The notes: generated by a model not told the origin, from the sequence alone. A stretch of 64,000 nt of DNA from Candidatus Anstonellales archaeon (GCA_038869735.1 JAWCQO010000001.1:106967-170966); one strand, 5' to 3'; shown: positions 2,494 through 64,000, counted from the stretch's first letter. Program-made: numbers and translations.

Positions 2494-2969
2494 TTTTTCA
2501 TCACCTCGCAGTTGCTGCATTGCCTTTTTAGGAGAAAGTGGATGGAGAGCGCAAGAAAGACTATGCTAATTAATCCTAAGGATAGGTTAAAACCAGAGAT
2601 AAACGCTGCGGCAGAACCCAGGCCTGCCCACATTAGAAGGGGGGGATAACAGAAAGGGCATGATGTTGTAAAGAATGCTAAAGTGCTACCAATAACAGAC
2701 AGTTTTAGTGGAAGAGTATGTTTCTCTTTGTTAGAGTGGTTGTAGAAGAGGAGAGTAGCATTAAGAGAAATGAGAAGAGAAATGCAAAATATTATGAGCA
2801 ATAGCAATGGGTCTGTAAAGGGATTTATCTGCAGTGGTAAAGGAACTATAAAGTTGGAAGTTATTGAGAGTATAATAAAAAATATGAGAAAGAGGAGACT
2901 AAACAAGAGAGTATATTCTCTTTTTGATAGTATGTTCCGTAGGTATAGGATAGAATGTGATGCGCTCAT
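2490..2969 (-). CDS. Four-segment membrane protein with CPFC motif in a metal operon
   Basis: 159 residues, mostly hydrophobic, with about four membrane segments. A TSCPFC motif sits at the start of the third segment, and a second pair, CSNC, lies in the short C-terminal tail. Cys pairs in or next to membrane segments are typical of thiol-metal permeases such as MerT, but I see no firm match to a named family. It overlaps the genes on both sides by ATGA (2966-2969 and 2490-2493), the mark of translational coupling. Role inferred from context: moving or relaying copper between the cupredoxin-like protein and the HMA proteins. Confidence 0.72.
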   Translation of the reverse strand: MSASHSILYLRNILSKREYTLLFSLLFLIFFIILSITSNFIVPLPLQINPFTDPLLLLIIFCISLLISLNATLLFYNHSNKEKHTLPLKLSVIGSTLAFFTTSCPFCYPPLLMWAGLGSAAAFISGFNLSLGLISIVFLALSIHFLLKRQCSNCEVMKK

Positions 2970-3631
2970 ACGACCACTAGTTTGCCTCCCCTAAACATTC
3001 TCATGCCGCAATTGTACTCGAAGGTACCTTCTCTGTTTGGAATAAAATCGACTATCTGTTCCTCACCGCTTTTTGAAATTGCACGGACGTTTAAACCATA
3101 TATGACGAGCTGTCTTCCACAACCTGCATTCTTATCGGCTGAGAAATGCAGCCTGACCGGTACTCCCTTTTTTACTTCTATTCTGTCTTTGTCATATCTC
3201 CCTGTCGAAAGCGCCCTAATATAGATATCCTGTACTTCTTTATTACCGGATGTTCCAGTAACATAAGAGGAGGGAGAGGTGTTTGATGAGGGAGAGCGGA
3301 TAGTGTTTAGAGTTGTAAGGGATGCATCAAGAGGACATGCTCCAACATTCCCACTTTCGCATGATGGTTGCGACGAAGATGACAGGATACCGGCAACAAG
3401 ATAAATCAGAAGAAGGATTGCAAGGGACGAAGCTAGTATAAAGGGGAAGGTATTCATTTGTGCATTTATTTGAGCGGTTTTTGCCATTTGATTATTTAGT
3501 TGAGTAGTTGCTTTGTTTTCTGAGGCTTTTTCATTTCTTGTCTCTTGATCGCAGCCACAACCAAAAGAGCTCCTGGGAATCTCGTTTGGTTCTTCTTGTG
3601 GTGTATTGCTTTGGTTTACAATGGGTTCAAT
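2966..3631 (-). CDS. Membrane-anchored cupredoxin-like copper protein
   Basis: About 221 residues. A short cytoplasmic part with GCGCD precedes one membrane segment and a Ser/Thr-rich linker; the C-terminal third looks like a cupredoxin fold, with GCGRQL, a YNCGM motif and the final GGKLVVV strand giving Cys and Met ligands. The likely task is binding copper outside the cell and feeding the operon's membrane proteins. Start choice: ATG 3685 lies only about 15 bases from the TATA box at 3696-3705, so it is probably not transcribed. The SD GAGGTGG (3637-3643) lies 5 bases before an ATT codon at 3631, which I take as the start. GTG 3640 is an alternative, but it overlaps the SD. Confidence 0.68.
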   Translation of the reverse strand: MEPIVNQSNTPQEEPNEIPRSSFGCGCDQETRNEKASENKATTQLNNQMAKTAQINAQMNTFPFILASSLAILLLIYLVAGILSSSSQPSCESGNVGACPLDASLTTLNTIRSPSSNTSPSSYVTGTSGNKEVQDIYIRALSTGRYDKDRIEVKKGVPVRLHFSADKNAGCGRQLVIYGLNVRAISKSGEEQIVDFIPNREGTFEYNCGMRMFRGGKLVVV

Positions 3632-20048: not shown

Positions 20049-22601
20049 TTAGATAATTATTGAATCTATAAATGATGGCAACTGCTCAAGAGATATTAGA
20101 AAGAGTCTCTTTGAAGCAACTTCAAGTTTGATTCTTACTGCAAGTGGAGTTGTAGAGGTGAGTCGCTTAGAAAACTCTTCAAGCACTATTGAATTTTCAA
20201 AAAGGAGGATTGTTGGGTATTCGGAAATGGAGCATAGTGCGCGATAAGCAGATGAATCATCCTCAAAGAAGCAGATAGCGTATTCTCTTCCAGATATAGA
20301 AAATTTTACGTCTGCCTCTTCATTGCTTGTTGGTCTTGAAAATTTGATTGCTTTGGTTATAAGTACATCTCTAACGTGTCTGAATAGAGATAGATTCTTG
20401 AGGCTTCTTTTTGCTTCGGTTTCCCATCTTTTCAGACACCAGAAGCCTAGTACTTCTTTTACCTCGCCAGTACGGTTTTGGATTTGGAGCAAAATGCGCT
20501 CAAGATTGTAATCACCAATGATTATTGGACTGCCGTTATGCTTCAACTTCCTAAACCCGCTTTTGAGGTCTTCAAGTGAAAGTGGCATGTATCGCCATTG
20601 GTACGTTTTATTTACGGTATCAAAGAGCTCCAGTACTTGATCTTTCTTTATTGGAATCTTTATTTGTGATATTGGTGGAAATTCAGGTATATCTATAACA
20701 AGAAGCTGTTTTTCTGGCTTGCGGAGATAGGTGCCTATTGCAAAAAACAGAATAGTCAGCATTCCCATGAAGATGATTAGTGGATTTTCATAAAACTGCT
20801 TTTGAAGTATATACTCGATTTGAATAGATTTTTTAAAGCCGCCGTCGAACTCGAAGGTGAAGTTATGGGTACCGGGTGGAAGATTCGGAACATAATAGAG
20901 AAGAACGGTTGATGGTTGGATTTCTTTCTCAAATTTGCCATCCACCGAGACTTTTAGGCGCTGGAATGGTATTTTCTCCTCTTTGGATGATGTAAAGGAA
21001 AATGAGAAATTCCCGTTTTTAAAGTCTTGATTGGCTACATAGACAGAAAAGTCTTCTACCTCTACCTGCGCCTGAGCGTAAACTCGGTTCGTAGAATCAA
21101 CTACCCGGAGTATGTAAATTCCAGAAGGAAGAGAGGAGTCATAATCAAATGGAAGCGGTGATTGGAGATTGGTTAATCCTTCTTGTACTTGCTCAGATTT
21201 TATTACTTGTCCATCTTTTATTGTCTGAAGGAATAGCTTTCTTTGACCTCCCCCGGATTCTTTAAAATCGAGTATTAAACGAATCTTTTGCCCAGTCAGA
21301 TAGGTTGGCAAGAATGAGCTTCCTCCTTTTACATAGATGTTTGAATTTTGCTTCTTGCTTAATGCTAAATCAACTCGTCGGCTTATCTTTTGTCCGTCTG
21401 GCGATTCGCCTTCAAAGCGTATTATTGAGAAGATTTCTGATGGCAGAAGAGGGGGGGAGTAGATATAAACGGTATCAGAGGTTGAATTCTCGACCATAAG
21501 TTGCACTTCTGTTTTTGCCAAAACATTCTGCCATGCATAATTGGAGATTAGTCGAGAAATGTCCTCAGCTGCGGTTTCGCCGTTTCTTCGCCATCCTCCA
21601 TCGAGTGTTTGGGGTAGGAAGACGAAATAACTCGAGTTTAAGGCGAGTGCTGATATTGACCCATAAATTTTGGTTTTTGCGATCTGAGACGCGATTCGGG
21701 GTGCGACGCTGTATTGTGGGTCGAACAATCGAAAGTCCTCGTCAGATGGTGTCGGACGTTCAAATATAAATGGCAGGGAGGAAAGCAGTTCCTTTGACGA
21801 TACGATTGGAATGCCCTCATCATTAAGAATGCGGTCAAATGGAAGGCCTATATAAATAATTATTATCCCTTTTGAAAGGAGATCCTGATAAAAAAAACTG
21901 CTTTCAAATAATTTAGTGGGAAAATAACCAGTTGGTATTATTAGAACTGAGCGAGGCGGAAGTGACTTAAGTTGCGCATATGTAACATCATTGACGGATA
22001 TTTCGTTGAGAGTTAATAGCTCTTCTAGCTTTGACCTAAAGGTCTGGTAAGTTTCTGCTTGATGGCTCTTTGTTTGAAGAATAAAAACTTGTCTTGGAAG
22101 GGGATTTGGGAAAAATGTTGCAAGAATTTTTGCTGATGAAAGGTCCTTTTGATTATAGGAAATCTCGAAATAGGCTGTGTGAAATTGAGGGGTCTCGCCC
22201 CAATCAAGAATCTGAAAGTCTTTGACTTCGACATCAACCCAGGGAGTATACGGCGCTTTTTGTGGTGGCGGTGGCTGGTTTTGTGAAAATGAAAAGTAGA
22301 AAGCCGCCAAAAGAAGAAAAAAAGCAAATGCAGCTATGGGCAAAAGAATGGTTTTGATGGTGGGTGAAGTTTTAGGAGCTTCTTCTGCTTTTTTTTCATC
22401 TGCCTTTTGCGCAACCGGAACTTTTTTTTGGGGAGTGGAAAGAAAAGACGAAACGCGTTCAATCAGATTTTTTGATAATGGTGGCTTCTTCTGAACAAAT
22501 CTCTTTACATTCTCATATTTCTTTCTTATTGTAAAGATATATGCCTTTTTTGAAATGCGAAATTTGAGCGTTTCTTCATCCACCATAGGACCAGATCCCA
22601 T
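20049..22601 (-). CDS. Large two-segment membrane protein of the VirB4-like module
   Basis: 850 residues, family not recognised. A basic cytoplasmic N-terminus (1-100) is followed by a membrane segment (about 105-128) and a Pro-rich linker. A large outer region (about 140-615) holds an alpha/beta part with LIIPTGYFP and then beta-sandwich-like domains. A second membrane segment (about 628-645) leads to a cytoplasmic C-terminal domain of about 200 residues, with GDYNLERILLQIQNRTGEV and a WCLKRWE motif. It is the last gene of the minus-strand module with the VirB4-like ATPase, 26 bases after the coiled-coil gene. The topology suits a protein that links the cell exterior to the ATPase; this is inference. 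Confidence 0.7.
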   Translation of the reverse strand: MGSGPMVDEETLKFRISKKAYIFTIRKKYENVKRFVQKKPPLSKNLIERVSSFLSTPQKKVPVAQKADEKKAEEAPKTSPTIKTILLPIAAFAFFLLLAAFYFSFSQNQPPPPQKAPYTPWVDVEVKDFQILDWGETPQFHTAYFEISYNQKDLSSAKILATFFPNPLPRQVFILQTKSHQAETYQTFRSKLEELLTLNEISVNDVTYAQLKSLPPRSVLIIPTGYFPTKLFESSFFYQDLLSKGIIIIYIGLPFDRILNDEGIPIVSSKELLSSLPFIFERPTPSDEDFRLFDPQYSVAPRIASQIAKTKIYGSISALALNSSYFVFLPQTLDGGWRRNGETAAEDISRLISNYAWQNVLAKTEVQLMVENSTSDTVYIYSPPLLPSEIFSIIRFEGESPDGQKISRRVDLALSKKQNSNIYVKGGSSFLPTYLTGQKIRLILDFKESGGGQRKLFLQTIKDGQVIKSEQVQEGLTNLQSPLPFDYDSSLPSGIYILRVVDSTNRVYAQAQVEVEDFSVYVANQDFKNGNFSFSFTSSKEEKIPFQRLKVSVDGKFEKEIQPSTVLLYYVPNLPPGTHNFTFEFDGGFKKSIQIEYILQKQFYENPLIIFMGMLTILFFAIGTYLRKPEKQLLVIDIPEFPPISQIKIPIKKDQVLELFDTVNKTYQWRYMPLSLEDLKSGFRKLKHNGSPIIIGDYNLERILLQIQNRTGEVKEVLGFWCLKRWETEAKRSLKNLSLFRHVRDVLITKAIKFSRPTSNEEADVKFSISGREYAICFFEDDSSAYRALCSISEYPTILLFENSIVLEEFSKRLTSTTPLAVRIKLEVASKRLFLISLEQLPSFIDSIII

Positions 22602-22627
22602 CAGCCCAAGTTTAAAATTAAATCAAC

Positions 22628-23365
22628 TCATTCCTTGATTGCGAGGTAGCCTTCCAATACAAGCCTGTTTAACACTGCCTCTACCCGACTTTCTGGAACG
22701 CCGTAAGTTTTTGAAAATTCAGTTATGTTTATCTCTGAGTTGTGTTCGTGAATCCAATTTTGTATTTTTGATGCAAGAACTTCGTCAGAAATGGACTGGA
22801 ACTCTGCAAGCTTATTTGCAAGCTCATCTTTTGACACTTTTAGTTCATAGTTTTCCCGCGAAAGGAGAGTATTTGCCTCCTGTAGGTCTCGAACTCTCTT
22901 TTGAAGAGAAATAACCTCTGATTTTAGGCTGTCGTAGAGAGAGTAGAGTTTATCGTAATCGCTAGTAACGTATTCCTCCATTTCAGATAGAGCATTTTCC
23001 AGCATTTGGTATATCTTTCGATTGTCAATGCTATAGTTGGATCCCAACAGCGTAAGAAGATTGAGGAGATACTTTAACATATCAAGTTTTCTTTTTTTTG
23101 GACTCATTCCGGCTGTATAGGTGTAGAGAAGCTCTATTTTGTCTGGATGGAAGTAGGTTAGTGAAAACAAGAATGGGTTTTTGTGGATATCTCTACTCTC
23201 GACGTTTATTCCAATGATGGTTTCGTTTTCTTCTACCAACTTTAAAAACGAAAGTTGAGAAAGTGATTCAAAAACGTCTTTTTTGCTGCCTACCCTTGAA
23301 GCCTCTAAGAATATTCCGCTAACCTTTGGCGGAGTCGTTGCTTTTTGCTGTTTTTGTGGAGGCAG
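22628..23365 (-). CDS. Coiled-coil protein with C-terminal winged helix, VirB4-like module
   Basis: About 245 residues. An N-terminal alpha/beta part (GIFLEAS..., FESLSQLSFLKLV, IIGINVES) precedes a long coiled coil (about 140-200) and a C-terminal helix-turn-helix-like domain (ITEFSKTYGVPESRVEAVLNR). The frame is open with no ATG, GTG or TTG between 23365 and 23239. TTG 23239 has no ribosome site, whereas GGTGAT (23371-23376), formed by the stop of the upstream gene, lies 5 bases before CTG 23365, which I take as the start. A cytoplasmic adaptor or regulator role in the module is a guess from architecture. Confidence 0.68.
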   Translation of the reverse strand: MPPQKQQKATTPPKVSGIFLEASRVGSKKDVFESLSQLSFLKLVEENETIIGINVESRDIHKNPFLFSLTYFHPDKIELLYTYTAGMSPKKRKLDMLKYLLNLLTLLGSNYSIDNRKIYQMLENALSEMEEYVTSDYDKLYSLYDSLKSEVISLQKRVRDLQEANTLLSRENYELKVSKDELANKLAEFQSISDEVLASKIQNWIHEHNSEINITEFSKTYGVPESRVEAVLNRLVLEGYLAIKE

Positions 23366-23371
23366 ATGATA

Positions 23372-23836
23372 TCACCTTTTTTTCTTTTTGATTTTTTTTG
23401 ATTTAGATTTAGTGGCAAGAATGGCTTGTTTAGACGTCTTTTTCTCTAAAGAAGGCTGCTCAGACAGAGACGGCGGTGGTTGAGGAGTCTCTTCAATTGC
23501 AGGAACGTATGAGGTAAGAGAAAACAGCACAAGAAAAGCTCCGATGAAGATAGATATAATAAAAGTTCCGAGGGACAGTGTCCCGCTAAGAAGAGAGAGA
23601 CCAACAAAGGCAATGAAGATGATGACTGCAAGGGCAATGTACTGAACCAGTGTCTTTTCAAATTTAGTCCTTCTTTTCTTATATTCTTCATACATCTCTT
23701 CGCTCACAATAAGTCTGTTATTTTTTGCGATTCCAAAAAAACGCTTTATTTTTCTTATTGAGCGTATCACTATGTCTTCCTTGACTGGATAGCCAACGCC
23801 TTCATTTCCTGACATTATGCAAATCCCTCTTTCCAT
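23372..23836 (-). CDS. Two-segment membrane protein with Lys-rich tail, VirB4-like module
   Basis: 154 residues. A cytoplasmic N-terminus of about 60 residues leads to a hairpin of two membrane segments (about 64-108), then a Pro/Ser-rich stretch and a very basic tail (KSKSKKIKKKKR). Small proteins with a membrane hairpin are common partners of VirB4-type ATPases (VirB3 and PrgI types), though I see no clear sequence match. ATG 23836 is used; ATG 23815 with GAGGGAT upstream is also possible. It lies 27 bases after the ATPase gene. Confidence 0.65.
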   Translation of the reverse strand: MERGICIMSGNEGVGYPVKEDIVIRSIRKIKRFFGIAKNNRLIVSEEMYEEYKKRRTKFEKTLVQYIALAVIIFIAFVGLSLLSGTLSLGTFIISIFIGAFLVLFSLTSYVPAIEETPQPPPSLSEQPSLEKKTSKQAILATKSKSKKIKKKKR

Positions 23837-23863
23837 ATCTCAAAACACCTCTTTTATGTGTGT

Positions 23864-25438
23864 CTACTCCTCCAATATAACTTGGGTTATATCTCGTCCA
23901 GTCATCCCAAGTTTTTTGAAATCTGTTTTGGAGAATATATTTATTATAGTTAAGTCGTCGATTCCCATATCTTTGAGAAGGGAAGTTATATTATTTCTTC
24001 CAAGGCCGTAGCGTTCAAGAAGGATAACAAATGAGATCACATCAAGATGGTTGTTTTTCTTTGAAAATAAAGAGACTATTTCTTCTATATGAACTGTGTC
24101 GAGGCCAAAAGACAGCAACTTCTTTTTTAATTCTCCTCTCTCAAATGAGACTACTTTAGCCATAAGCTCATCCCTCCGTTCCTCCTCTGAAAGAGCAGAA
24201 GAGAGATCCAAGAAAAGCTCTTGCAGAGGTTCTTCACCGTCAACGCGCTCCATTATAAATGTCTCTGAAAACTGCATTGTTGTCTGAAAAGCCATATTTA
24301 CTGCGCAGGACCCAAGCCCCAGCTTTGCAATCTCATCTCTCATAAAATCCGAAAAATTGAGAGTGTTTTGCAGATAGTTCAAAAAGCGCTCAAATTTCAC
24401 TCTAAAAATAAATGTGGTCCCAACGTTTGAGAAGATTGCTTCTGAGATATCTGTAGGATTTTGTGAAGCAACAATAAGCCCAAACTGGTATTTTCTTCCT
24501 TCCCGGACAATCATAACTGCATCTGAATTATCGTCCTTTGCAATTTTCCATGCTTCATCAAGCACAACCAAAAGACGCAGGCCAGCCGTTGAGCTCCAAC
24601 CTGACTCACGCATCTTTTCCTTTATGAACTGGAGCATAGATAGAGCAGCTAAGCCTCTGAAGACTTCATCAGGGAGTCCAGATAGGTCCAAATCTACAAG
24701 ACCAGCATTTAAAAGTTGCTCTAAGTTAACGGTTGATTGTTGTGCAAAATAATCTTCGCCTTCGCGAGTAAACTGCTTTATTCGATAGATTGCATTTTCA
24801 AGTTCTGCCGGAAATTCGTATGTTCCTGCTGCAAGCTGATCTTCAAGGATGTGTTGTACATCCCGCAATGTTGGCGGTTGAAGTGGGCGACCTGCACGGT
24901 CACGCTGGACTTTTCTATCAAGCTTAAATCCAGCCTCAACATAAGCTTTTTCTATGGCATTTTCGGTAAGTCTTTTTTGTTCAGGGTAATGACTTATGTC
25001 TGTGAGTATCTCCAACGTTCGGATAATCTGTTTTATCCTATCATTTGGTTTCATTCCGCCCAAATCAAGGAGATTTATATAAGAGCCCTTGCCAAGTGAA
25101 ATTACAATGCCGCCTGTTTGTTTTACCCACTCCTTGTATTCTCCTGCCCAGTCAATTATAAACGCATTGGTTCCCCAGACAAAGCTGGCTCGAGTTAGAA
25201 AAGTTTTTACAAAATAGCTTTTTCCAGAGCCGGTTATTCCAACCACACAGATATGTGGATTAGTGATTCGCTGGAATGTCCAATAAAAAGGAACGTGAAA
25301 AATCTTTGTTCTTCCTATATAAATGGAATTTGTGGGGTCTGCCATGAGGTAATCCTCTGGCGGCTCTGGCGGCCTGACAAAAAAATTGCGCCTAGCTACA
25401 TCGCGATTAAAGACGTGAGATAGTTTTAGCCTTCCCAT
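23864..25438 (-). CDS. VirB4/HerA-superfamily ATPase (type IV secretion-like)
   Basis: About 524 residues. It has Walker A GITGSGKS (near residue 68), the strand IIDWAGEYKEW after it, Walker B LLVVLDEAW (near 291) and the sensor-like ASQNPTD, an arrangement typical of VirB4/TraC ATPases that power DNA or protein transfer. The long N-terminal domain of classical VirB4 is absent; a protein resembling it is encoded by the gene just upstream. A C-terminal extension of about 110 residues (helical, repeated DLTIINIFSKTDF-like units) is unusual. ATG 25438 follows GGTGGT by 4 bases. A HerA-like role in DNA processing is the main alternative, but no NurA is nearby. Confidence 0.85.
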   Translation of the reverse strand: MGRLKLSHVFNRDVARRNFFVRPPEPPEDYLMADPTNSIYIGRTKIFHVPFYWTFQRITNPHICVVGITGSGKSYFVKTFLTRASFVWGTNAFIIDWAGEYKEWVKQTGGIVISLGKGSYINLLDLGGMKPNDRIKQIIRTLEILTDISHYPEQKRLTENAIEKAYVEAGFKLDRKVQRDRAGRPLQPPTLRDVQHILEDQLAAGTYEFPAELENAIYRIKQFTREGEDYFAQQSTVNLEQLLNAGLVDLDLSGLPDEVFRGLAALSMLQFIKEKMRESGWSSTAGLRLLVVLDEAWKIAKDDNSDAVMIVREGRKYQFGLIVASQNPTDISEAIFSNVGTTFIFRVKFERFLNYLQNTLNFSDFMRDEIAKLGLGSCAVNMAFQTTMQFSETFIMERVDGEEPLQELFLDLSSALSEEERRDELMAKVVSFERGELKKKLLSFGLDTVHIEEIVSLFSKKNNHLDVISFVILLERYGLGRNNITSLLKDMGIDDLTIINIFSKTDFKKLGMTGRDITQVILEE

Positions 25439-25448
25439 TTTTACCACC

Positions 25449-26258
25449 TTATGAGAGGCGAGCCTCGAGCTCCTTTTCGTTGGGAGGTATCATGTACTCC
25501 CAATCAAAACATGTTTTCATTTCCTCTCCGGTTAGAACGATTACATCAACGTTTAGTGCGTTTGACACCGTAGCTCTTATTTCGTTTGCCTGAGATTTTA
25601 CTGCAGCAAGTGCCGCTTCCTTTGAGACACCGGTTGCTGTTGTCATTACATAAGCTACGCACCCCATTGGCTTAATACCGCGTGTGAGTTTTGCTATTTG
25701 GTTTTCCCACATCGCAACTTCGCGCTCGTAGCGGTCTATTTTGAGGATGTCAGGCTCAGGTTTGTCGCGTTCTCTGGAGAGTCTAAGCTGAGCCTCTGCA
25801 TATTTCGTCTCCATTTTTTCGCGGAATTCGTTTAAATCTTTTAGATAGATAAGAAGGCAGAATTTGGTAACAAACCGCACTGAGGATATTGCCCGCTCAA
25901 AATATTCTGAGTAAATTATGTTTTCTTCAGGTGTTTTGTCTGTTGTTGACTCGTAGATCCTGACTCCCAAGAACATGGATGCATAGTAAGTTGAGCCGAC
26001 TTTTTTTAAGATAGCATCCTGCTCTGGTGGGATTTCATAGCCTGTATCAGTTATCTGTACTATCCTTGCACCACTAGTCAAGAAAGGGAATAGAACGTAG
26101 CCATACTTGTAGAAAGCTATTGCACCTACCGCACCTAGACCGGCAAATATGCCTCCTATGAGGGAAAGAGGCCCTCCGCCTCCTGTGAATGCGCCTATAA
26201 CTCCAAGCAATCCTATTAAAGCAGAACCGTATCCCATCTGCTTTGTATCAACTATCAT
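25449..26258 (-). CDS. Membrane protein with VirB4 N-domain-like region
   Basis: About 269 residues. Two Gly-rich membrane segments (about 8-55) are followed by a soluble domain with YFERAISSVRF, FREKMETKY and a long helical pair ending in a YVMTTATG strand. This layout resembles the N-terminal domain of VirB4/TraC proteins, which contacts the membrane parts of the secretion channel. It ends 10 bases before the ATPase gene starts, so the pair looks like a VirB4 split in two, with a VirB3- or PrgI-like hairpin fused to the front half. ATG 26258 is chosen because GGGGATC lies just before it. Confidence 0.72.
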   Translation of the reverse strand: MIVDTKQMGYGSALIGLLGVIGAFTGGGGPLSLIGGIFAGLGAVGAIAFYKYGYVLFPFLTSGARIVQITDTGYEIPPEQDAILKKVGSTYYASMFLGVRIYESTTDKTPEENIIYSEYFERAISSVRFVTKFCLLIYLKDLNEFREKMETKYAEAQLRLSRERDKPEPDILKIDRYEREVAMWENQIAKLTRGIKPMGCVAYVMTTATGVSKEAALAAVKSQANEIRATVSNALNVDVIVLTGEEMKTCFDWEYMIPPNEKELEARLS

Positions 26259-28012: not shown

Positions 28013-28071
28013 TGGAAAATGATTGGTAAGCAAGATTATTAAAAGTAGTTTGAGAAAAGCAAAGATGTTCT

Positions 28072-28145
28072 GCCGCGTTAGCTCAGCCTGGGAGAGCATT
28101 CGGCTGAAGACCGAAGTGTCGCTGGTTCAAATCCGGCACGCGGCA
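28072..28145 (+). tRNA. tRNA-Phe(GAA), no intron
   Basis: The acceptor GCCGCGT pairs with ACGCGGC, and the discriminator is A. The anticodon arm CGGCT/GAAGA is closed by TTCGG/CCGAA, and the T-arm GCTGG/CCGGC has an uninterrupted TTCAAAT loop. No CCA is encoded. It is the first of four tRNA genes between 28.0 and 29.8 kb. Confidence 0.93.
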
Positions 28146-28232
28146 TATCAAACAATTAGGCATATTAAATTAGGAGTTTGTCTGCTCTTGCAAAGGTATA
28201 AATAGAATTTTGATGTTAGAAAATCAAAAAAA

Positions 28233-28306
28233 GCGACTATAGTCTAGCCTGGTTAGGACACGAGATTGCCAATCTCGAGAGCCGGGTTCAAATCCCGGTG
28301 GTCGCA
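28233..28306 (+). tRNA. tRNA-Gly(GCC), no intron
   Basis: The acceptor GCGACTA pairs with TGGTCGC (one G-T pair), discriminator A. The anticodon loop is TTGCCAA, closed by CGAGA/TCTCG, with T-arm CCGGG/CCCGG. A TATA element (28196-28204) lies about 30 bases upstream. No CCA is encoded. Confidence 0.93.
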
Positions 28307-28341
28307 TAGATGCACATAAATGCGTTATAGTTTATGAAGGT

Positions 28342-28415
28342 GCGACTGTCGTTCAACCTGGTTAGGATGCGAGCCTTCCAAGCTCATGATCCGGGTTCAA
28401 ATCCCGGCAGTCGCA
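28342..28415 (+). tRNA. tRNA-Gly(TCC), no intron
   Basis: The acceptor GCGACTG pairs with CAGTCGC, discriminator A. The anticodon loop CTTCCAA is closed by GAGC/GCTC, with T-arm CCGGG/CCCGG and an intact TTCAAAT loop. It lies 35 bases after tRNA-Gly(GCC). Confidence 0.93.
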
Positions 28416-28472
28416 TTTAATCTTTGCGGCTATTTTATTAGATTGATAATGTTGGTTTGCTAGGTTGGTTTG

Positions 28473-37627: not shown

Positions 37628-40318
37628 TTACAGCTTTCTTATTCCAGCTATAAACTGTTGGGCTGCTGTCACGGTGTCAGCTGCAGTATAACCTGCAACG
37701 ACAATCGTGTCGCCAACTTCCTTGACAACCACGGAGGTCGTGGTAAAGTCAACAGTGTTTCCAAGCGCCTCTCTTGTTACGGTGTTGACAAGCGGGCCAC
37801 CTACAGAAATCTTCTTGCCGACTCCTGCAGCTGCGCTGTCAAGGACAACAAGGTCGCTTGAAAGCCTATAAGGTTCTGTGACTTCAACTGAGGCAGCATT
37901 GTTTGGCATAATTACAGCAGACACTCCGCTGGAGTCTACCGTGCATTCAGGTGTTGCGCCTCCAACTGCACCGGCAACACAAGAGCCGACTGTCTCTGTA
38001 ATTGATGCTACCTTAATCTTTATGCCTCCCGATACCTCCAAGGTTTCGCCTTCGCCAAGAGACCTCTTAAGAACATTGGCTGTCTCAACACCACTGCTCT
38101 TAAGCACGTACTTTGCCTCTGCCACCTTCTTTGCAACGTCAAAGATGACTTCGTCAGAGCTGAGAGAGACAAACTTTGAACCCCTCTCTGAAATGACTGG
38201 CGCATCATAGTACCTTGTGACTGGGTCAAGGTCGATGCTTGAATCCTTTGGACTGGTGTAATAGATTGCGTCTGTGTTGTCACCGTTGGGCGCCGTGAAT
38301 GTGAAGCTGCCGTTTGACCTTCCAGATACATCGAAGACAAAGGCACCGTGTTTTTGGGTTACTGTGTTTACCTTTCCTACATCCTCCTGCAGATAGATAG
38401 AGAGGTTTCCGGAAGATACTGGCTTACCCAAGAAGCTGAGATATCCTTGAGCTGTTCCTGTGCCTGCAACATCGTACTCAACAGCACCTGAGGCTGTCGT
38501 GTTGGCGGTGGTGTTTTCATCACCTAGTTTCCCTTGCCAGTAATAGCAGCCTGCGTTAGATGGCTTGTAATATACCGATACCGCGGGAGTTATCCCCGAC
38601 CCGTTAACGAGGGGTCTGTACCGAACGTAGAACTGCTTTACGTATTCGCCTCCTGAGCCTGGTATCTTGAAGGCATTGGACTGCTGAGACTCAACCTTGA
38701 CAAGCTTTTCTCCTGATAGAGATGTTGCACCTGTGCATGAAGTGTTTGATGTGACAGTGGAGCTCGGAAGTCCGGGTGAAACAAGCCCGATATCAGAGCT
38801 GTCAACGATTGCAAATTTCAGCCTGTCATAGTCAGTTCCTGACAACGAAAGCCCATCATACATCAGCTGATAGGACGCTGGCTTCCCTATAATGTCAATA
38901 CCTGACCCTGCAGTAATGTCAGAGTAAGTCTCGCCATTATAGAGAATTATCTCTCTCAAGGTGTCAGCGGTGCCTCCTCCTGTTGGAAGTCCACTTGTCC
39001 AGCCCTTGTTCTTCCATCTTAGGTATACATACCATGGGTAGTTAGGATTAGACGGTTCAGTTGAAACCCTCTCGCCACTTTTAAGGGACAGCTCGTCTGT
39101 TAGTATTGCCATGTCTGCCCACTTGGCGTTAAGGGTGAATCCCGGGGCTGTTTTGTACACCTTTATCCTGACAGTTGAGCCGTCTGGTGCAGTGTATGTG
39201 TATGTGCTTCCTTCGTTTATTGTGGTTTGCTTAAGCACAGCACCATTTGCATCCAGTATGTCAACGATTGCAGGATGGAGGTTGCTTGCGCCTGATGCAA
39301 CCGATATGTCTGAGAGCCTTACCTTGACGCTTCCGGCATCAAGCTCGTCTCCAACGTTGATGATTCCTGACTGGGAAGCTTTTGCAAGTTTAATTGAACC
39401 ACCAAACAACGTTGAAGTGGCTGAGTCAAGAGTGCCGCTTGGAACTGAGACTTCCGATAAAACCCAGCTCTGGCCAAGGAACTGTATCTCCAGCTTGTGG
39501 GTGTCTATGTGCTCGCTGTCTGTTGAGGAACAGCTTGCATAATTGTTTGTCGTGGTGTCGTAATTTGTGCCTGAACAGACCACTATTCCGTAGTCTCCTG
39601 AATCAAATTTTACGCTGTAGCCGATTCCCTTAAACTTTCCAACTACTTGGTCAAGAGTTGGGCTGAAGTCTGTCTCACCATGAACCCAGAGAGCCTGTGT
39701 CTCTGTGTATGTCGCGCCTCCTCCTGCTGTGTCAGTCAGAGTCACTGGTGAGAAGGCTGGGAAAACATCCCCGCTTATCTTGTATACATCCTGTGTGCTT
39801 CTTATCTTACTGGTGTCATTAGCGTCGCCGTATAGGCTTGAGAAGAGAGATGACGTATCAACTGTTGCAGAATAGGTGTCATCTGAAGAAGTCTTATTTC
39901 TGTTTCCAGGACTTCTATCAATATAGTCTGCAATCAGTGTTGTAAACTGATACGCCCCACCGGCAACTCCCGGCAGTGTCACCTCCAAGTTTGCCTTTTT
40001 GTTTGTAACGGCGCACGTACCTCCTCCTGTTCCGCCTCCGGTTACACCGCCAACAGAACAGGTCGCTGTACCTTTAACCTCAGCTGTAAGAGTTGAGCTC
40101 TTATAGGCGAGGTTTGCAATTCTTGCAGCGATGTTTGCCGCAGCGACTCCATCTGAAGCTGCTGCATTCGCGCCAACCACAACCTTCACAAGGGGTTGCC
40201 CATTAACATCTACAAGCTCGGTGTTGCCATACATTACTTGAGCAACTGAAACCGAGGCTCCAAGGAGGGCTACTCCCGATGCGAGGGCTGCGATTTTCCT
40301 CACATTTATGCCTTTCAC
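37628..40318 (-). CDS. S-layer protein, methanococcal type
   Basis: About 896 residues. It is the probable main subunit of the cell's protein coat. The N-terminus has the methanococcal S-layer signal region (VRKIAALASGVALLGASVSVAQ), then a domain with GQPLVKVVVGANAAASDGVAAA; the C-terminus ends with a small domain and AADTVTAAQQFIAGIRKL, the pattern of S_layer_C. The body is rich in Thr, Ser, Gly and Val. GTG 40318 is the start: GAGGTGG ends 4 bases before it, and the frame upstream of it belongs to the leader. Codon choice and G+C differ from neighbours, as is common for very abundant proteins. Confidence 0.88.
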   Translation of the reverse strand: MKGINVRKIAALASGVALLGASVSVAQVMYGNTELVDVNGQPLVKVVVGANAAASDGVAAANIAARIANLAYKSSTLTAEVKGTATCSVGGVTGGGTGGGTCAVTNKKANLEVTLPGVAGGAYQFTTLIADYIDRSPGNRNKTSSDDTYSATVDTSSLFSSLYGDANDTSKIRSTQDVYKISGDVFPAFSPVTLTDTAGGGATYTETQALWVHGETDFSPTLDQVVGKFKGIGYSVKFDSGDYGIVVCSGTNYDTTTNNYASCSSTDSEHIDTHKLEIQFLGQSWVLSEVSVPSGTLDSATSTLFGGSIKLAKASQSGIINVGDELDAGSVKVRLSDISVASGASNLHPAIVDILDANGAVLKQTTINEGSTYTYTAPDGSTVRIKVYKTAPGFTLNAKWADMAILTDELSLKSGERVSTEPSNPNYPWYVYLRWKNKGWTSGLPTGGGTADTLREIILYNGETYSDITAGSGIDIIGKPASYQLMYDGLSLSGTDYDRLKFAIVDSSDIGLVSPGLPSSTVTSNTSCTGATSLSGEKLVKVESQQSNAFKIPGSGGEYVKQFYVRYRPLVNGSGITPAVSVYYKPSNAGCYYWQGKLGDENTTANTTASGAVEYDVAGTGTAQGYLSFLGKPVSSGNLSIYLQEDVGKVNTVTQKHGAFVFDVSGRSNGSFTFTAPNGDNTDAIYYTSPKDSSIDLDPVTRYYDAPVISERGSKFVSLSSDEVIFDVAKKVAEAKYVLKSSGVETANVLKRSLGEGETLEVSGGIKIKVASITETVGSCVAGAVGGATPECTVDSSGVSAVIMPNNAASVEVTEPYRLSSDLVVLDSAAAGVGKKISVGGPLVNTVTREALGNTVDFTTTSVVVKEVGDTIVVAGYTAADTVTAAQQFIAGIRKL

Positions 40319-40470
40319 GAAACCACCTCGTGGTTTTCTTTCCGCCGCCTCTTTTCGGGCGCTTTTTTGTTCAAAAATATTATCGGCGACGGAAATTCTT
40401 GCGCCCAAACAATTTCCTTCTCCTGTGTTAGAAACCCTCGGGTAGGGTCTCCAATCTGGAGAGTTGGAGT
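40319..40470 (-). promoter_or_regulatory. Structured 5' leader of the S-layer mRNA with sequestered ribosome site
   Basis: The TATA elements (40476-40494) place transcription start near 40455-40465, leaving a leader of about 140 bases, unusual here. It can fold into CTCCAA/TTGGAG (40449-40469), ACCCT/AGGGT (40434-40448), a longer-range GGGCGC/GCGCCC helix (40357-40362 with 40401-40406), and a perfect AAACCAC/GTGGTTT hairpin (40320-40336) whose loop and 3' arm contain the GAGGTGG ribosome site. This would allow control of translation or stability; the regulator is unknown. Confidence 0.6.
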
Positions 40471-58255: not shown

Positions 58256-61200
58256 TTAAAGTAGAATCTCGTGAAAAGTGCCATCTTTTTCTTTTACACA
58301 TAATTTGAACTCTGAGTTTGATTCACCTCTTATCGAAATAGAGTGAGTTGAATAAGTTAGAGAAGGACAAGAGCCCAGAGAGAAAGAAAGTGGCTCTCCA
58401 ACAAGTGGATATGAGACAAATTGCGAAGCAAAATAGGCATCAGAGATTATTGCGGAGTGTAAAAATTTATCCGATTTATTTGGCGGAACGATATAGTAGA
58501 TATACGTGAATGGTGAGACAGCATAGCGGTTTTGTGGAAATACCTGTCCGTCCCTGTTCAGGGGATAAAACGGAATTCTTTCGGCTTTCTCATGATTTGT
58601 TCCTGTGTAATTTGCATTTACCAAATAAATGCTTGCAAACAAGTTATTTGCATATGTTGAAGCAGAATCTAGAGAGGATAATAAGGTAGTTCCTATTATG
58701 GAATATGTCTCTGTCCCAGAGATAAATGCAGCCACCGCAAGTATTATTGCAATGAACACTACCAGTGCAATTGCCAAAACCCAATATGGCTTTTCTTCTA
58801 TAAGCAACTTTCTTGATACAAACATTGCAACTGAACCAAATATCCCAAAAATCGAAATTGCATATAGAAGGAGGAGGGTGTTTAGCTCTATTACCATATA
58901 CTCTGCATCAATTACTATGGGTTGCATTCCTACTACTGACGAAATAAGCATCAATCCTGAAGAAAATGCAAACAGAACGAAGGCAAGTAATTCATAGGCA
59001 AGTTCAAGCAGATTTAGCCTGTATGTTGGAAGAATGTGGCTTACCTTAATTCGAGGTACTGAGAGCTGGATTAGAGGCTTTGGGGGATGGACTTCTGGAA
59101 CAACTATCCTTGGAAGTATTATTCTGATGTGGGGAAGGTAGAGATGAGGGATCTCAATTCTCATTTTTGGTACTCTGAAAACTGGTGCTCTAACCTTTAT
59201 TTTTGGAATTCTTAATATAGGAACCCTTATAAGCGGTGCGTAGAGGTGGAACTGAGGTATTACAATGCGTGGTATGGGTATAGAGAGCCGTATGTGGGGG
59301 AGGTGAATAGGCGGAAGGGAGATACGAATTGAAGGCATGGATATGTGAGGAAGTACTATCACTCTCTGAGATGGAAGAGTTTGTGGCTCTCTTGCGACTG
59401 CTTCTGTGGTGTGGATTGGTTTGTAGGGTCTTAGTGAGATATATTGTGAAGTAAGGTAAATGACACTTACAATAAGTCCACCTGCAATTATGGACAAAAC
59501 GGAATAGATGGCATCTATTTCAATTATATATTCTTGCTGCTCGATGCTAATGATACCTTCCTTGGTCTGGAAAAGGTATAATAATGAGACTGAAACAAGC
59601 AGAGCAACAAACATAATTCCATAAACGACTTTTGCCTGATGACTCCAGAAGACTTGTGCAAGATCTATTGTTGGAAAGAGTGGTTCCGGAGGAGCTTCTT
59701 CTACTTTTACTTCAAGCTTTCTCTTGGCTGCAATCTCAAGCTCTGGATAGTAGCGAACCTGAAGTGTGCTGACCTTGTGCTTTCTAAGTAAGATGACCAT
59801 TAAAGCAAGCAACGAACCTACAGAGATTGCTGCAAAAAGAACAAGCACATATGCGGCTCCAAAGAGGACTGAGTAGTAGGGAAGCTGACTTGGGGATGGC
59901 GGCTTTGGAATAAGCGTTTTGGGAGGGGCGTTCTTTGCAGAGAGTTTAGAAGCCTTAGCAAGTTTTAGGGCTTCTTCATAGTTTCCTTTTGAAAATGCAT
60001 ATAATGCGTTGTTTAGCTCCTCATAAGCCTGTCTTGTCTCTTTTCCGGTGGCTTCGTTCAATGCTTTCTTTGCCTCTTCGATTTCCTTCTGCGCCTCCTG
60101 CTTGAGAATCAGAGGTGAAATGACGCATCTGTTATCGATGCACTCCTCACCTTCCTTGCAGTCAAGTGATGAGCAACATTCATAATTTATCCAAGTGTGA
60201 TTAGCTGCATAGCCGCATTTTCCGCTTATTTGTAGACATCTACCCCAACTACAGTATTGATTATCTAAGCATTGAGAATCGTCATCGCATGAAGCTCGTA
60301 TGCAAAATCCTCCTACGCATATCTCTCCTTTCTTGCAATCAGAATCTGCAAGGCAGGCTAGGTCAGGTAGTGTCTGGTTGAGGACGATCTGAACGCACTT
60401 TCTTCCCTCGCATAGGTATCCGGAAGGGCAGTCCAAACTTGAGAGACATTGGGGTTCTTCTTTTTCTTTGGTACAGCTTACACTATATATTCGTGAGAAT
60501 GGGTAGAAATCTGTCTTTGAAAGCGAGAGAGAATACTGCCCTTGCGTTGGTGGAACAAAGGCTATCTTTCCATTTTTATCTGTTCTTCCTGAAGCAATTA
60601 TATTTCCGCCAATTCGTCCTTCTTCTCTTATAGAGTAGGATGCATCTTGAAGCGGAGAACCAGCATACTCAACGATTATGACTGATTTTGTTCCCGCACA
60701 ACCGATCCTTGCTACAACGCTGAATGTTTTGAGTGGTTCGCCTGGACAAATTCCGCAGTCCTCTGAGCAAGTGGCGCAATTTTCGCCTACAGAATAATGG
60801 CATACTCCGTCGCCGCAATAAGGCTTTATTACAATTAAGTATGCGGGGTCAGAAGATGTTTCAGTGAGAAGATAAATGTCATTTTCAAGTACCTTTGTTG
60901 CGTTTGCAACTATCCAACTTGACAGACATATGCTCTTCTCAAAATCCCACTTTGAGCATTTATAAAGAACTGCATTTTGTTCATCGCTTAAGGACAGATT
61001 GAGCCACGAATAGCTAAACGAAATATCTGCGTTTGTAAAGTTAAGTGATGTATTGAATGCTACCCCGCCCTTGAAGTTAAGGTCTCCAGAAGGAGCGTAT
61101 GCGAAGAGGTCCATTTGCAGATTTCCGCCATTTTCTCTTGAGACGTTTATTTCCATAAACGTTATGTTGAAGCTCCCGTTAAAGCTCTTTGTCTTCAGGT

Positions 61201-64000
61201 CAAGAATAGACTCTGACAATTCAACTACAAAACTGGAATTTCCAAGAAGATTCTTAACTATTGCAGTAGAATTGGGGTATAAGAAGGTCATATTGACGTA
61301 TAAATCGGATTGGTTTGCAGTTAGCGTTGAGAAGTGGAACTGTACAGGCTCGGAGACCTCAAAGTAGTCACTTGCATTTGCTGTGTTGCCGGCAGTATCA
61401 TTTGCATAGAAGGTTATGTTATACCTCCCATAAATTTGCGGTGTGACGTAGGTTGTTGGTATTGAGCTTATTTCAACCATTGATGAGTTTGGAAGTGTGA
61501 TGTTTGCCCACATCTTGTCAACCTGAACATTATCTGTTACAGTGGCGTAGAGATACACTTGAGATCCGTTTGAAGCGATTTTTGGAGTTATAGAAGTATC
61601 GACGACAACTGGGGGTGAAATATCATAAACAGAGATTGTTATGTTTATTATTTCTGTTCTAGTGTTTGACACAAAGCTTGAGTAATTAGTGGTATTGAAA
61701 TCCACAAAGAAAGCATGGATGGTAAAGAGGTTGCCAGTTGCATTCACATTCCAGCTGAAGGTACATGATTCATCCTTTTTTAGAGAGGTACAGTTGGTCT
61801 GCGGATTCGGGCTTATTGTATAGAAAGGAATCGCTCCTTGGACGGTCGAGATTGCTCCTGTCTTTGTGGTAGGTAGGATTATGTTATCAGTTGTATTCTG
61901 ACTCTTGTATTCGCTTGAGTTGCAGGATACCCTGAAAGTATAGGATGTATTCTCAGCCAATATAGAGTGGTTTTCATACAAAGAGCTTGTGGAATTGAAA
62001 CTCATTTGGAGTGGCTCGGTGTAGGCTGAATCTGGATCTGCCTGCTTTTTGAATTGGATGATACAGGTTCCTTCTGAAGGGCCTATTACGTCTCCGACTT
62101 GTCCTTGCGTGTAGTTTGCCAAGAACTTTATTTCTTTGCCAGCTGCTCTGCTCTTCCCTCCATACGGCATTCTGGGATTTGTCTCGCTCCAGATAACCAA
62201 GTAAGACTCATTGAGAAGGCCACCGGCGTATCCTGAAAATGAAGAGACATTGAACTCAATGTATGTGGGATACTGAACAAAGGGAATTTGGGTTGCTTTC
62301 CACTCTGGACAGCTGAATGATTCTTGATCAAAGTTCGGACAGTGCAGAATAGCGTCTACTTTATCCTCTGTGGGTAGGATTATTTTTGCTGATTCGATAG
62401 TAATATTTGAAACAGCAACTACGTCGGTCTTTATTCGCGAATCGTCCACATAGTCTATAACGACTTTTACTTCACCAGGCACCACTCCATATAATTCTAC
62501 TTTTGGTTGTGGCACGCTTTCAGCAATCCTGTAAAGGGCAGCTCTTTGTGGGGGGGAGATAGCTGAACCGGTAGTTGCTGCGTCCTGGCGCTTTACAAAC
62601 GTAATGTTGAATTTTCCATCAGTTCCGTTTGTTATGGTATATTCCCCTCCCTTACTAGTATTTTTTAAGGTAAAGACAACTGTGAGTTGCTGAGAAACAT
62701 TCTCAGTGGACTTGAGTATTTGGAGATTTACGTTTATGGAAGTATTCTGACCTAAGATAACTTCAACTGATGGAAGATAATAGGAAGCAAATCCGCTTTT
62801 TTCTAATCTTAGCGAGTAATTTGCTTCTGAGAGGTTTCCAATAACAAGCGGAGTCACGCCAATCGGACTTTCATTTAGATAGATGGTTGCGTTCTCAGGA
62901 GTTGAGTAAACCAAGATACTTCCATATTTTATCTGTTGGTTTTCTGCTGATATATTTTGTATGTGGTTTTGATCTTGTGTTTCTTTTTTGCTTATATTTA
63001 CCTCTTCGCCAATCACGTTTAGTATCACAAAGCCTTCTTTTCTTTCATCTTCCGGCGTCTTTAGCTGGTGGATTAGATTACTTGCAAGCTCTGATATGTC
63101 ATCAAGTATAGTTATATTTCCAAACAGCGGTAGTTCTATTGGATCAAGGGTCGCTTCAACTCCACCGCATTCCCCGCCAAGGCAAGTTACACGAGCAGTA
63201 AAGGTAAAGAATTCGCCTTGAACAACACTCGCATTTGATGAATGTGAAACAACGCTTGCCGCTAGGTGTCCCCAAGGTATGCTCCAATTGTTAGTTATAT
63301 TTGCTGTGTTTCCATATTCATCTATGCATGAAGCTGTAAGATTGAAGTCGCCCGAATCGTTTATAGTATGATTTACCTCGGCAATCCAGTCAGTTAGAAC
63401 AACGACTGTTGCATTTGATGTGTTGATCAAAGCAATTGTGTCTGGTTCATTTGTCAATAGATAGCTTGCGCGTACTATGTTGTTGTTAGGGTCAGTACAA
63501 CTTAAAGAGATATTTACAATTTTTTCACCATAGACAAATTCCGTGCAGTTTTTGTATATGCCGGTTTCATTGGAACAAGTCAGATTGCTTATTTCAGGAA
63601 TCTGGCCACCGGATATGTTTATTGAAAATATGGATTGCGCTCCGGTTGAGGAGAGACTGAATGAATTGTTGCAATAAGGTTGCCATGAATAATTGCCATT
63701 TGGGAGATTTCGCCATATTGTAAGATTTGAATTGTGCTGCGCTGGAGTGGATTCATTATAAGTGGTTCCGTTTATGATTACTGCGCAAGAGACTTCACCC
63801 ACTGGATTTTCAACATAAAATGTGAAGTTGATAAGTGTGGTGTCTATGAAAAGGGAGTTATTCTCCGGATATAAGGGGGTCAATGATGGTGGTGCTGCTT
63901 GTGAGGAAGCTCTTGGTCCCCAGTCCTGGCCATATCCTGTCCAGTTTCCTCCCTGAGTTGAGGCTGACAGTGGATAGCCGCTTCCATAATCTCCCCAGCC
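58256..64000 (-). CDS. Giant surface protein with PEGA, Cys-rich and Pro-patterned repeat regions (N-terminus outside window)
   Basis: At least 1914 residues; the frame is open to the right edge, so the true start is further on and the TTG at 63883 is internal. In order: an aromatic Gly-rich stretch (GYGQDWG), Ig-like domains, a PEGA domain (STPENATIYLNESPIGVTPL), more beta domains, a CGDGVC...GENC...CGIC unit, several C-x(5)-C units (for example CKKGEICVGGFC), a helical EAKKALNEATGKE segment, and membrane segments. A proline-patterned stretch of about 110 residues follows (plus 59040-59370), then more membrane segments and an outer C-terminal domain. It is probably an adhesin or coat-associated protein; the family is not recognised. 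Confidence 0.82.
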   Translation of the reverse strand, partial: GWGDYGSGYPLSASTQGGNWTGYGQDWGPRASSQAAPPSLTPLYPENNSLFIDTTLINFTFYVENPVGEVSCAVIINGTTYNESTPAQHNSNLTIWRNLPNGNYSWQPYCNNSFSLSSTGAQSIFSINISGGQIPEISNLTCSNETGIYKNCTEFVYGEKIVNISLSCTDPNNNIVRASYLLTNEPDTIALINTSNATVVVLTDWIAEVNHTINDSGDFNLTASCIDEYGNTANITNNWSIPWGHLAASVVSHSSNASVVQGEFFTFTARVTCLGGECGGVEATLDPIELPLFGNITILDDISELASNLIHQLKTPEDERKEGFVILNVIGEEVNISKKETQDQNHIQNISAENQQIKYGSILVYSTPENATIYLNESPIGVTPLVIGNLSEANYSLRLEKSGFASYYLPSVEVILGQNTSINVNLQILKSTENVSQQLTVVFTLKNTSKGGEYTITNGTDGKFNITFVKRQDAATTGSAISPPQRAALYRIAESVPQPKVELYGVVPGEVKVVIDYVDDSRIKTDVVAVSNITIESAKIILPTEDKVDAILHCPNFDQESFSCPEWKATQIPFVQYPTYIEFNVSSFSGYAGGLLNESYLVIWSETNPRMPYGGKSRAAGKEIKFLANYTQGQVGDVIGPSEGTCIIQFKKQADPDSAYTEPLQMSFNSTSSLYENHSILAENTSYTFRVSCNSSEYKSQNTTDNIILPTTKTGAISTVQGAIPFYTISPNPQTNCTSLKKDESCTFSWNVNATGNLFTIHAFFVDFNTTNYSSFVSNTRTEIINITISVYDISPPVVVDTSITPKIASNGSQVYLYATVTDNVQVDKMWANITLPNSSMVEISSIPTTYVTPQIYGRYNITFYANDTAGNTANASDYFEVSEPVQFHFSTLTANQSDLYVNMTFLYPNSTAIVKNLLGNSSFVVELSESILDLKTKSFNGSFNITFMEINVSRENGGNLQMDLFAYAPSGDLNFKGGVAFNTSLNFTNADISFSYSWLNLSLSDEQNAVLYKCSKWDFEKSICLSSWIVANATKVLENDIYLLTETSSDPAYLIVIKPYCGDGVCHYSVGENCATCSEDCGICPGEPLKTFSVVARIGCAGTKSVIIVEYAGSPLQDASYSIREEGRIGGNIIASGRTDKNGKIAFVPPTQGQYSLSLSKTDFYPFSRIYSVSCTKEKEEPQCLSSLDCPSGYLCEGRKCVQIVLNQTLPDLACLADSDCKKGEICVGGFCIRASCDDDSQCLDNQYCSWGRCLQISGKCGYAANHTWINYECCSSLDCKEGEECIDNRCVISPLILKQEAQKEIEEAKKALNEATGKETRQAYEELNNALYAFSKGNYEEALKLAKASKLSAKNAPPKTLIPKPPSPSQLPYYSVLFGAAYVLVLFAAISVGSLLALMVILLRKHKVSTLQVRYYPELEIAAKRKLEVKVEEAPPEPLFPTIDLAQVFWSHQAKVVYGIMFVALLVSVSLLYLFQTKEGIISIEQQEYIIEIDAIYSVLSIIAGGLIVSVIYLTSQYISLRPYKPIHTTEAVAREPQTLPSQRVIVLPHISMPSIRISLPPIHLPHIRLSIPIPRIVIPQFHLYAPLIRVPILRIPKIKVRAPVFRVPKMRIEIPHLYLPHIRIILPRIVVPEVHPPKPLIQLSVPRIKVSHILPTYRLNLLELAYELLAFVLFAFSSGLMLISSVVGMQPIVIDAEYMVIELNTLLLLYAISIFGIFGSVAMFVSRKLLIEEKPYWVLAIALVVFIAIILAVAAFISGTETYSIIGTTLLSSLDSASTYANNLFASIYLVNANYTGTNHEKAERIPFYPLNRDGQVFPQNRYAVSPFTYIYYIVPPNKSDKFLHSAIISDAYFASQFVSYPLVGEPLSFSLGSCPSLTYSTHSISIRGESNSEFKLCVKEKDGTFHEILL

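Follow-up and report, generated by a model that had tools for sequence, protein, structure and literature searches.

Introduction

Among described systems with which the locus presented here can be compared, the Ced system of Sulfolobales (CedA, CedA1, CedA2, CedB, CedD and CedE) contains two proteins, CedB and CedD, whose N-terminal domains (N-domains) correspond to different portions of that of VirB4 and which both carry ATPases (PMC11868833). In Patescibacteria, a type IV secretion system (T4SS) without a relaxase is essential for epibiotic growth (PMC10633639, PMC12102498). Here we describe five adjacent genes, P1 to P5, at positions 20,049 to 26,258 of a 64,000-nucleotide stretch of DNA from a Candidatus Anstonellales archaeon (GCA_038869735.1 JAWCQO010000001.1:106967-170966), hereafter the window. 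An original prediction, made from the sequence alone, had read them as a VirB4-like module whose ATPase is split into two genes, outside any ordinary conjugative element.

It is an open question by what route material passes between hosts and those DPANN archaea whose genomes measure about a megabase. In Nanobdellota YN1 an attachment organelle has been seen, the proteins of which are unknown (PMC11420986). A cultured Micrarchaeon depends on its host, and passages of the Mia14 genome paper report extensive gene exchange between the two; the secretion section of that paper names type IV pili, Sec and Tat and leaves VirB and HerA unmentioned (PMC5498576). The open literature that we searched, with subscription papers and preprints outside the search, contained only incidental mentions of Micrarchaeota together with VirB4 or type IV secretion.

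Results

The divided motor

The five open reading frames (ORFs) lie on the minus strand with 1-27 bases between them. Clear orthologs of every one of them, arranged alike, occur in dozens of genomes, which rules out chance ORFs, and the predicted module is real. The ATPase, P2, matches three Pfam families over their cut-offs (AAA_10 2.3e-13, DUF87 6.6e-12, P-loop_TraG 3.2e-10). Its best NCBIfam models are CedD (2.3e-20) and CedB (2.5e-20), followed by the VirB4 of mycoplasma integrative and conjugative elements, TraC (5.9e-16) and CD1110 VirB4, and the CedD, CedB, VirB4 and TraC models match every member of the P2 family. Judged by the curated cut-offs, P2 does not qualify as a Ced protein, as it stays far under them (72.8 of 600 bits for CedD, 72.6 of 700 for CedB); its scores with the mycoplasma VirB4, TraC and CD1110 VirB4 models are likewise well short of the respective curated values. 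It does have the make-up of a VirB4-type motor, being RecA-like with Walker A, a DEAW-type Walker B, RK and SQ, and in 36 sequences the Walker A, Walker B (DEAWK), REGRK and SQ motifs are invariant. The alignments begin at P2 residue 40 for CedB (its residue 252), 41 for the CD1110-type VirB4 (393) and 52 for VirB4_CagE (422). Since those to CedB and VirB4 start 250-500 residues inside these proteins, P2 is without their N-terminal part, in agreement with the prediction of an ATPase lacking the classical N-terminal domain.

We found the fold of this domain on the gene upstream. An AlphaFold2 model of P1, built from 47 sequences (predicted local distance difference test, pLDDT, 84.7), shows a two-helix hairpin and, after it, an alpha/beta domain that bears a helical arm. 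In a Foldseek search with this model, VirB4/TrwK of R388 fills the top five rows (prob 0.80-0.98, E 0.06-0.08), and VIA-align places P1 72-268 on TrwK 221-380 (8rtd chain g) with a Z of 11.8 and a root-mean-square deviation (rmsd) of 2.7 over 150 residues. Four further VirB4 entries reach Z 8.7-9.0 and unrelated rows at most 8.2; most of the unrelated rows align no more than the helical arm, the VirB4 rows the whole soluble domain. The matched part, TrwK 219-382, stands directly ahead of the motor domain, so that P1 followed by P2 reproduces the order of VirB4 from about residue 219 onwards. The VirB4 N-domain fold is hence present in the system, on a separate gene and not in the same polypeptide as the ATPase, and only its second half (TrwK 219-382) is recognised; for the first 218 residues of VirB4 no counterpart was found in this system. 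The P1 hairpin is VirB3-like in position only. The original prediction had assigned a VirB4 N-domain and a two-segment hairpin to the protein at 25449-26258, naming the lack of that domain as an outcome that would speak against it, and the AlphaFold2 model contains the fold. Among 156 P1 ORFs, some of them counted in more than one fetched locus, there is no genuine P1-P2 fusion, and we regard the split of the VirB4 motor over two genes as well supported.

Several apparent relations were discarded. The only ORF that joins P1 to P2, in L015 and L060, contains an N gap and a local duplication and was rejected as an artefact of assembly, and the Pfam GPS2_interact match of P1 is a chance hit on the helical arm. 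Homology among P1 to P5 themselves was nowhere convincing, the relation of P1 to P3 (hhalign 62%) resting on 48 columns that are mostly hairpin. P1 had no match in plasmids, and viral contigs gave five distant ATPase matches only and no P1-type module. Separately, about 517 residues that look like an intein are inserted directly in front of Walker B in the P2 gene of one genome from another family (L143:2626-5826).

Distribution and inheritance

Counting genomes within the phylum Micrarchaeota, P1 was found in 258 of 295, including 88 of the 96 high-quality ones, and a P2-type ATPase in all 59 genomes of the order, a few of which have the second-module type (see below) only. The full set P1-P5 occupies 51 of 63 distinct loci in many families, in some with P1 duplicated and/or a separate copy of the P2 C-terminal domain (P2C) inserted. 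Loci without the full set are mostly cut off where a contig stops; in one of the others P5 is inverted, and a single genus of family f21 has no more than P1-P2-P5. The expectation that the homologues would be found together was borne out in nearly every testable locus of the phylum. P1 is tandemly duplicated in families f12, f13, f14 and f17 (L133-L139), and P2C occurs in f12, f13, f17, f5 and f22.

P1 is missing from families f16, f18, f20, f24 and f25 and from most of f21. Twenty P1-less genomes were tested for P5: 17 had none, one gave a marginal match (8.5e-5) and two had a P5 at a contig edge. The latter (G142 and G172, family f13) were dismissed as cases of P5 without P1, as the contig stops before P1 would be reached. 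The co-occurrence of P1 and P5 at the family level is strongly supported.

The window genome also has a second module, P1'-P2'-P4', without P3 and P5, and all three of its genes recur in 10 of 12 further loci of the same order. It is an old paralog of the five-gene module, and P1-P2-P4 is the minimal core. In a tree of 44 ATPases, those of the five-gene module and those of P1'-P2'-P4' stand apart (98/95), and the former group largely by host family. Because the module is phylum-wide, keeps the same order and has an ATPase tree that largely follows host taxonomy, its pattern is that of old, vertically inherited core equipment of Micrarchaeota. This phylum-wide standing, the ancient paralog and the zinc finger of P3 described below go beyond what had been predicted.

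The partner proteins P3, P4 and P5

The large protein P5 has the 850 residues, two transmembrane segments and large outer part that had been predicted, according to its AlphaFold2 model (pLDDT 84.3) and predicted topology. Hydropathy and charge suggest an N-terminal cytoplasmic part, a first transmembrane segment, the outer region, a second segment and a cytoplasmic winged-helix-like plus alpha/beta region, which would put about 490 residues outside. In VIA, the GATase1-like domain of the outer part aligns with its GATase-like equivalent in 7x87 at Z 10.8 and with GH42 enzymes at Z 10.6; the macroglobulin/Ig-like domains reach Z 8-9. Matches of the outer part to complement and alpha-2-macroglobulin were set aside as generic Ig/MG folds with large rmsd. 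Mean pairwise identity falls from 0.66 in the P2 motor through 0.51 in the winged-helix-like part of P4 and 0.44 in P5 635-730 to 0.23 in the outer part of P5; such a gradient, with the motor most and the outer part least conserved, would follow if the motor stays constant while the surface that it serves varies. In P5 the segment IGDYNLERIL, the putative recognition-helix region, is acidic, not basic. A 678-residue paralog of P5 lies outside the operon in the same genome (L132:14752-16785, G000:C6) and is perhaps the partner of the second module at G000:C5.

P3 had been described as a membrane hairpin with a Lys-rich tail; both are present but do not make up the whole protein, which also has an N-terminal zinc finger (CxxC...CxxC). 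All four Cys are kept in 25 of 48 relatives; the P3 of the window keeps C6 and has lost the other zinc ligands, and most ligands are gone in its own family. P4 is conserved in nearly all loci and shows the expected coiled coil and winged-helix-like end, preceded by an N-domain (the P4 profile used in the locus survey has 39 rows, one of them from a wrong reading frame). No ATG, GTG or TTG precedes its conserved region, and the likely start is a CTG at 23365, 6 bases past the P3 stop. In PADLOC, P3 gave only a marginal PycTM match (0.00099), and among HerA-type defence systems only the ATPase matched, P1, P4 and P5 matching none.

Searches for further components

Missing genes were sought with Pfam in the window genome and nine others. 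The relaxase family PF03432, the one relaxase family searched, is absent from all ten; in archaeal conjugative plasmids, too, no relaxase is recognisable. The classical coupling protein (PF02534) is absent from nine, its match in the window genome lying only inside a giant surface protein. The predicted absence of both a relaxase and a coupling ATPase holds to this extent, with the qualification that the giant surface protein elsewhere in the genome has a HerA/VirD4-like ATPase domain. A VirB2-type pilin and VirB8, for which no dedicated search was made, are not apparent in the operon. NurA is absent from eight of the ten genomes, that of the window included, so that a plain HerA-NurA pair does not account for P2.

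At the start of contig G000:C6 (L132:1-9813), an incomplete ORF of >3271 residues has right-handed beta-helix and NEW3 domains, one transmembrane segment (2880-2898) and, after it, a HerA/VirB4-like ATPase domain (2929-3063). This micrarchaeal protein is similar to the SPEARE proteins of Nanohaloarchaea.

Locus and surroundings

The source genome comprises 884 kb in 15 contigs and is 96.85% complete; the window is chromosomal and the host belongs to Micrarchaeota (DPANN), the label Candidatus Micrarchaeota being carried by nearly all sequence relatives. Features of the five genes are collected in Table 1. A scan for promoter and terminator consensus sequences, which does not model archaeal promoters, gave no signal above chance. 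Upstream of the operon, tRNA genes for Phe, Gly-GCC and Gly-TCC stand in a row on the plus strand (28071-28416), that for Phe overlapping the start of an ORF at 28099-26294. The window further holds an S-layer-like protein (S_layer_C) at 37628-40408 and a 1875-residue protein with a PEGA domain at 58256-63883.

Table 1. Features of the five-gene module; positions are counted from the first letter of the window, residues from the start of each protein.
Feature	Position	Strand	Description	Evidence
P1	25449..26258	-	269-residue membrane protein; two-segment transmembrane hairpin (5-64) and VirB4 N-domain-like alpha/beta domain (70-269)	AlphaFold2, Foldseek, VIA
P1 transmembrane hairpin	26067..26246	-	helices 5-25 and 30-64	model; hydropathy
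P1 VirB4 N-domain-like region	25452..26051	-	matches TrwK 219-382	model, VIA
P2	23864..25447	-	527-residue VirB4/CedB-type ATPase without N-domain; start GTG 25447 or ATG 25438	
P2 Walker A (GITGSGKS)	25217..25240	-	G70, G73, G75, K76, S77 invariant	36 sequences
P2 Walker B (LVVLDEAWK region)	24545..24571	-	V295, D297, E298, A299, W300, K301 invariant	36 sequences
P2 C-terminal helical domain	23867..24190	-	duplicated in other families as separate gene P2C	
P3	23372..23836	-	154 residues; N-terminal zinc finger, two-segment transmembrane hairpin (~63-111), Lys-rich tail	
P4	22628..23365	-	soluble, 245 residues; N-domain, coiled coil, winged-helix-like C-terminus; CTG start likely	
P5	20049..22601	-	850-residue bitopic protein; large outer part, cytoplasmic C-terminus	AlphaFold2 (pLDDT 84.3), alignment
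P5 outer part	20796..22280	-	GATase1-like domain (169-357) inserted after beta-sandwich; macroglobulin/Ig-like domains (416-600)	VIA, Foldseek
P5 cytoplasmic region	20052..20699	-	winged-helix-like 653-723, then alpha/beta; best conserved part of P5	DSSP, pairwise identity

Discussion

In our view the five genes probably specify an envelope machine that Micrarchaeota carry on the chromosome and inherit vertically, with a VirB4-type motor divided between two genes. The suggestion of an undescribed envelope machine fits both the evidence and the open literature searched. As neither a PF03432 relaxase nor a classical coupling protein was found in the ten genomes and the ATPase tree largely follows the hosts, we take the module to be inherited core equipment and not a conjugative element, and the phyletic pattern supports the earlier statement that it is no ordinary element of this kind. 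Several observations weigh against our interpretation. The Foldseek E-value between P1 and VirB4 is only 0.06, and PDB profile search, Pfam and NCBIfam found no sequence link between the two beyond coiled-coil noise. For P2, Pfam HerA families score about equal to VirB4, and the PDB profile search ranks HerA proteins above VirB4, so that the choice between the two is not settled by sequence alone; the VirB4 assignment of the motor leans mainly on the fold of P1 and the NCBIfam ranking. Moreover, TrbL was not over the cut-off in the ten genomes, where diverged channels such as CedA could be missed, and neither a VirB6-like channel nor a VirB2-like pilin is recognised in the operon.

There is strong support for two roles in the machine that we envisage: P1 brings the transmembrane hairpin together with that half of the VirB4 N-domain which normally adjoins the ATPase, and P2 contributes the ATPase with its intact catalytic motifs. 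Beyond this, P1 may anchor a hexameric ring of P2 at the cytoplasmic membrane. P4, being soluble and having a coiled coil, would act as an adaptor in the cytoplasm, while P3 and P5 could make up those parts of a contact or surface apparatus that lie in the membrane and outside it. The conserved cytoplasmic region of P5 might serve as its docking site on the motor, and the variable GATase-like and macroglobulin-like domains would be turned towards the surroundings or a partner cell. When two cells are in contact, ATP hydrolysis would then move a substrate or surface subunit through the membrane. As substrate we would slightly prefer nucleic acid over protein effectors or subunits of a surface filament, because CedB and CedD are the nearest named ATPases. 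A bolder version, which we put forward tentatively and would rate below an even chance, is that the set represents a new class of machine for translocation at cell contacts, dating back to the ancestor of most Micrarchaeota or nearly so, which shares only the split VirB4 motor with known secretion systems, has P3, P4 and P5 as new parts and exchanges macromolecules with hosts.

Two specific forms of this envelope machine differ in what is moved. The motor could pull in DNA of a neighbour or host, for repair or as a source of nucleotides, in the manner of Ced or Ted, in which case channel and pilus would come from genes at other loci or from proteins that escape recognition. The match of P2 to CedD (2.3e-20) and CedB (2.5e-20), the spreading of the VirB4 N-domain over two proteins in Ced as well (PMC11868833), the extensive gene exchange between Micrarchaeon and host that passages of the Mia14 paper report (PMC5498576) and the winged-helix-like domains of P4 and P5, which could touch DNA, all speak for it. 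Yet P2 falls far short of the curated Ced cut-offs, a TrbL-like channel was not detected in the ten genomes and the putative recognition-helix region of P5 is acidic, and we consider such DNA import or exchange possible without expecting it. Alternatively, P2 may extract or export effectors or surface subunits at the contact site. A large and variable outer protein would suit such a role, as would the lack of PF03432 and of the classical coupling protein in the ten genomes, and the relaxase-less T4SS of Patescibacteria offers a functional parallel (PMC10633639, PMC12102498); but no pilin or effector was identified in the operon, and VirB6, VirB8 and VirB2, although retained in Patescibacteria, are not recognised here, and we take protein export to be slightly less likely than the DNA reading.

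The HerA-type sequence similarity of P2 also raises the question of a housekeeping motor, i.e. an FtsK- or HerA-like pump, tethered to the membrane, that would serve chromosome segregation or repair and recognise DNA through the winged-helix proteins. Vertical inheritance across the phylum and the lack of NurA, the HerA partner, in eight of ten genomes can be cited for it. However, the modelled fold of P1 is that of a VirB4 N-domain, about 490 residues of P5 are predicted to face outside and several families are wholly or nearly without P1 and P5, and we judge a housekeeping role improbable. Least credible, and already contradicted by the phyletic pattern, is a remnant of an integrated conjugative element: the presence of a VirB4-like motor and of plasmid TraC proteins at about 25% identity would agree with such an origin, whereas neither a PF03432 relaxase nor a classical coupling protein was found in the ten genomes, P1 has no plasmid relative, the same gene order recurs in many families and the tree largely follows the hosts.

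If the envelope machine is as we propose, the five-gene set may be a route of material exchange between Micrarchaeota and other cells. With its recognisable motor and surface-exposed partner, present in most families of one DPANN phylum, it offers a concrete target for the question of how such archaea deal with their hosts. It also shows how two genes can share the encoding of a VirB4 motor that is joined to unrelated partners, and provides a parallel to the T4SS that Patescibacteria need for epibiotic growth.

That T4SS is likewise widespread, chromosomal, mostly relaxase-less and found in ultrasmall host-dependent cells (PMC12102498, PMC10633639), but it is bacterial and keeps VirB6, VirB8 and pilins. 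The SPEARE proteins share with our genes the combination of DPANN surface proteins with a VirB4/TraG-like ATPase (PMC10266531), and one such protein occurs in this genome; SPEARE is, however, a single giant polypeptide, to which P1-P5 are unrelated apart from the P-loop ATPase domain. In the Trw T4SS of R388, the fold of TrwK 219-382 corresponds to P1 70-269, the VirB4-type motor domain to P2 and the position of VirB3 to that of the hairpin, whereas VirB4 is there a single protein and VirB6, VirB8, VirB10, VirD4 and a relaxase are not recognised here. Ced, with the ATPases nearest to P2, resembles the module in spreading the VirB4 N-domain over two proteins and in being domesticated and chromosomal (PMC11868833, PMC9905601). 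It differs in that P3, P4 and P5 have no known Ced counterpart, that no CedA-like channel was found here and that both N-domain parts of Ced belong to ATPases, while in the module one of them is carried by a separate membrane protein that has no ATPase, so that CedB and CedD are a looser precedent for dividing the VirB4 N-domain.

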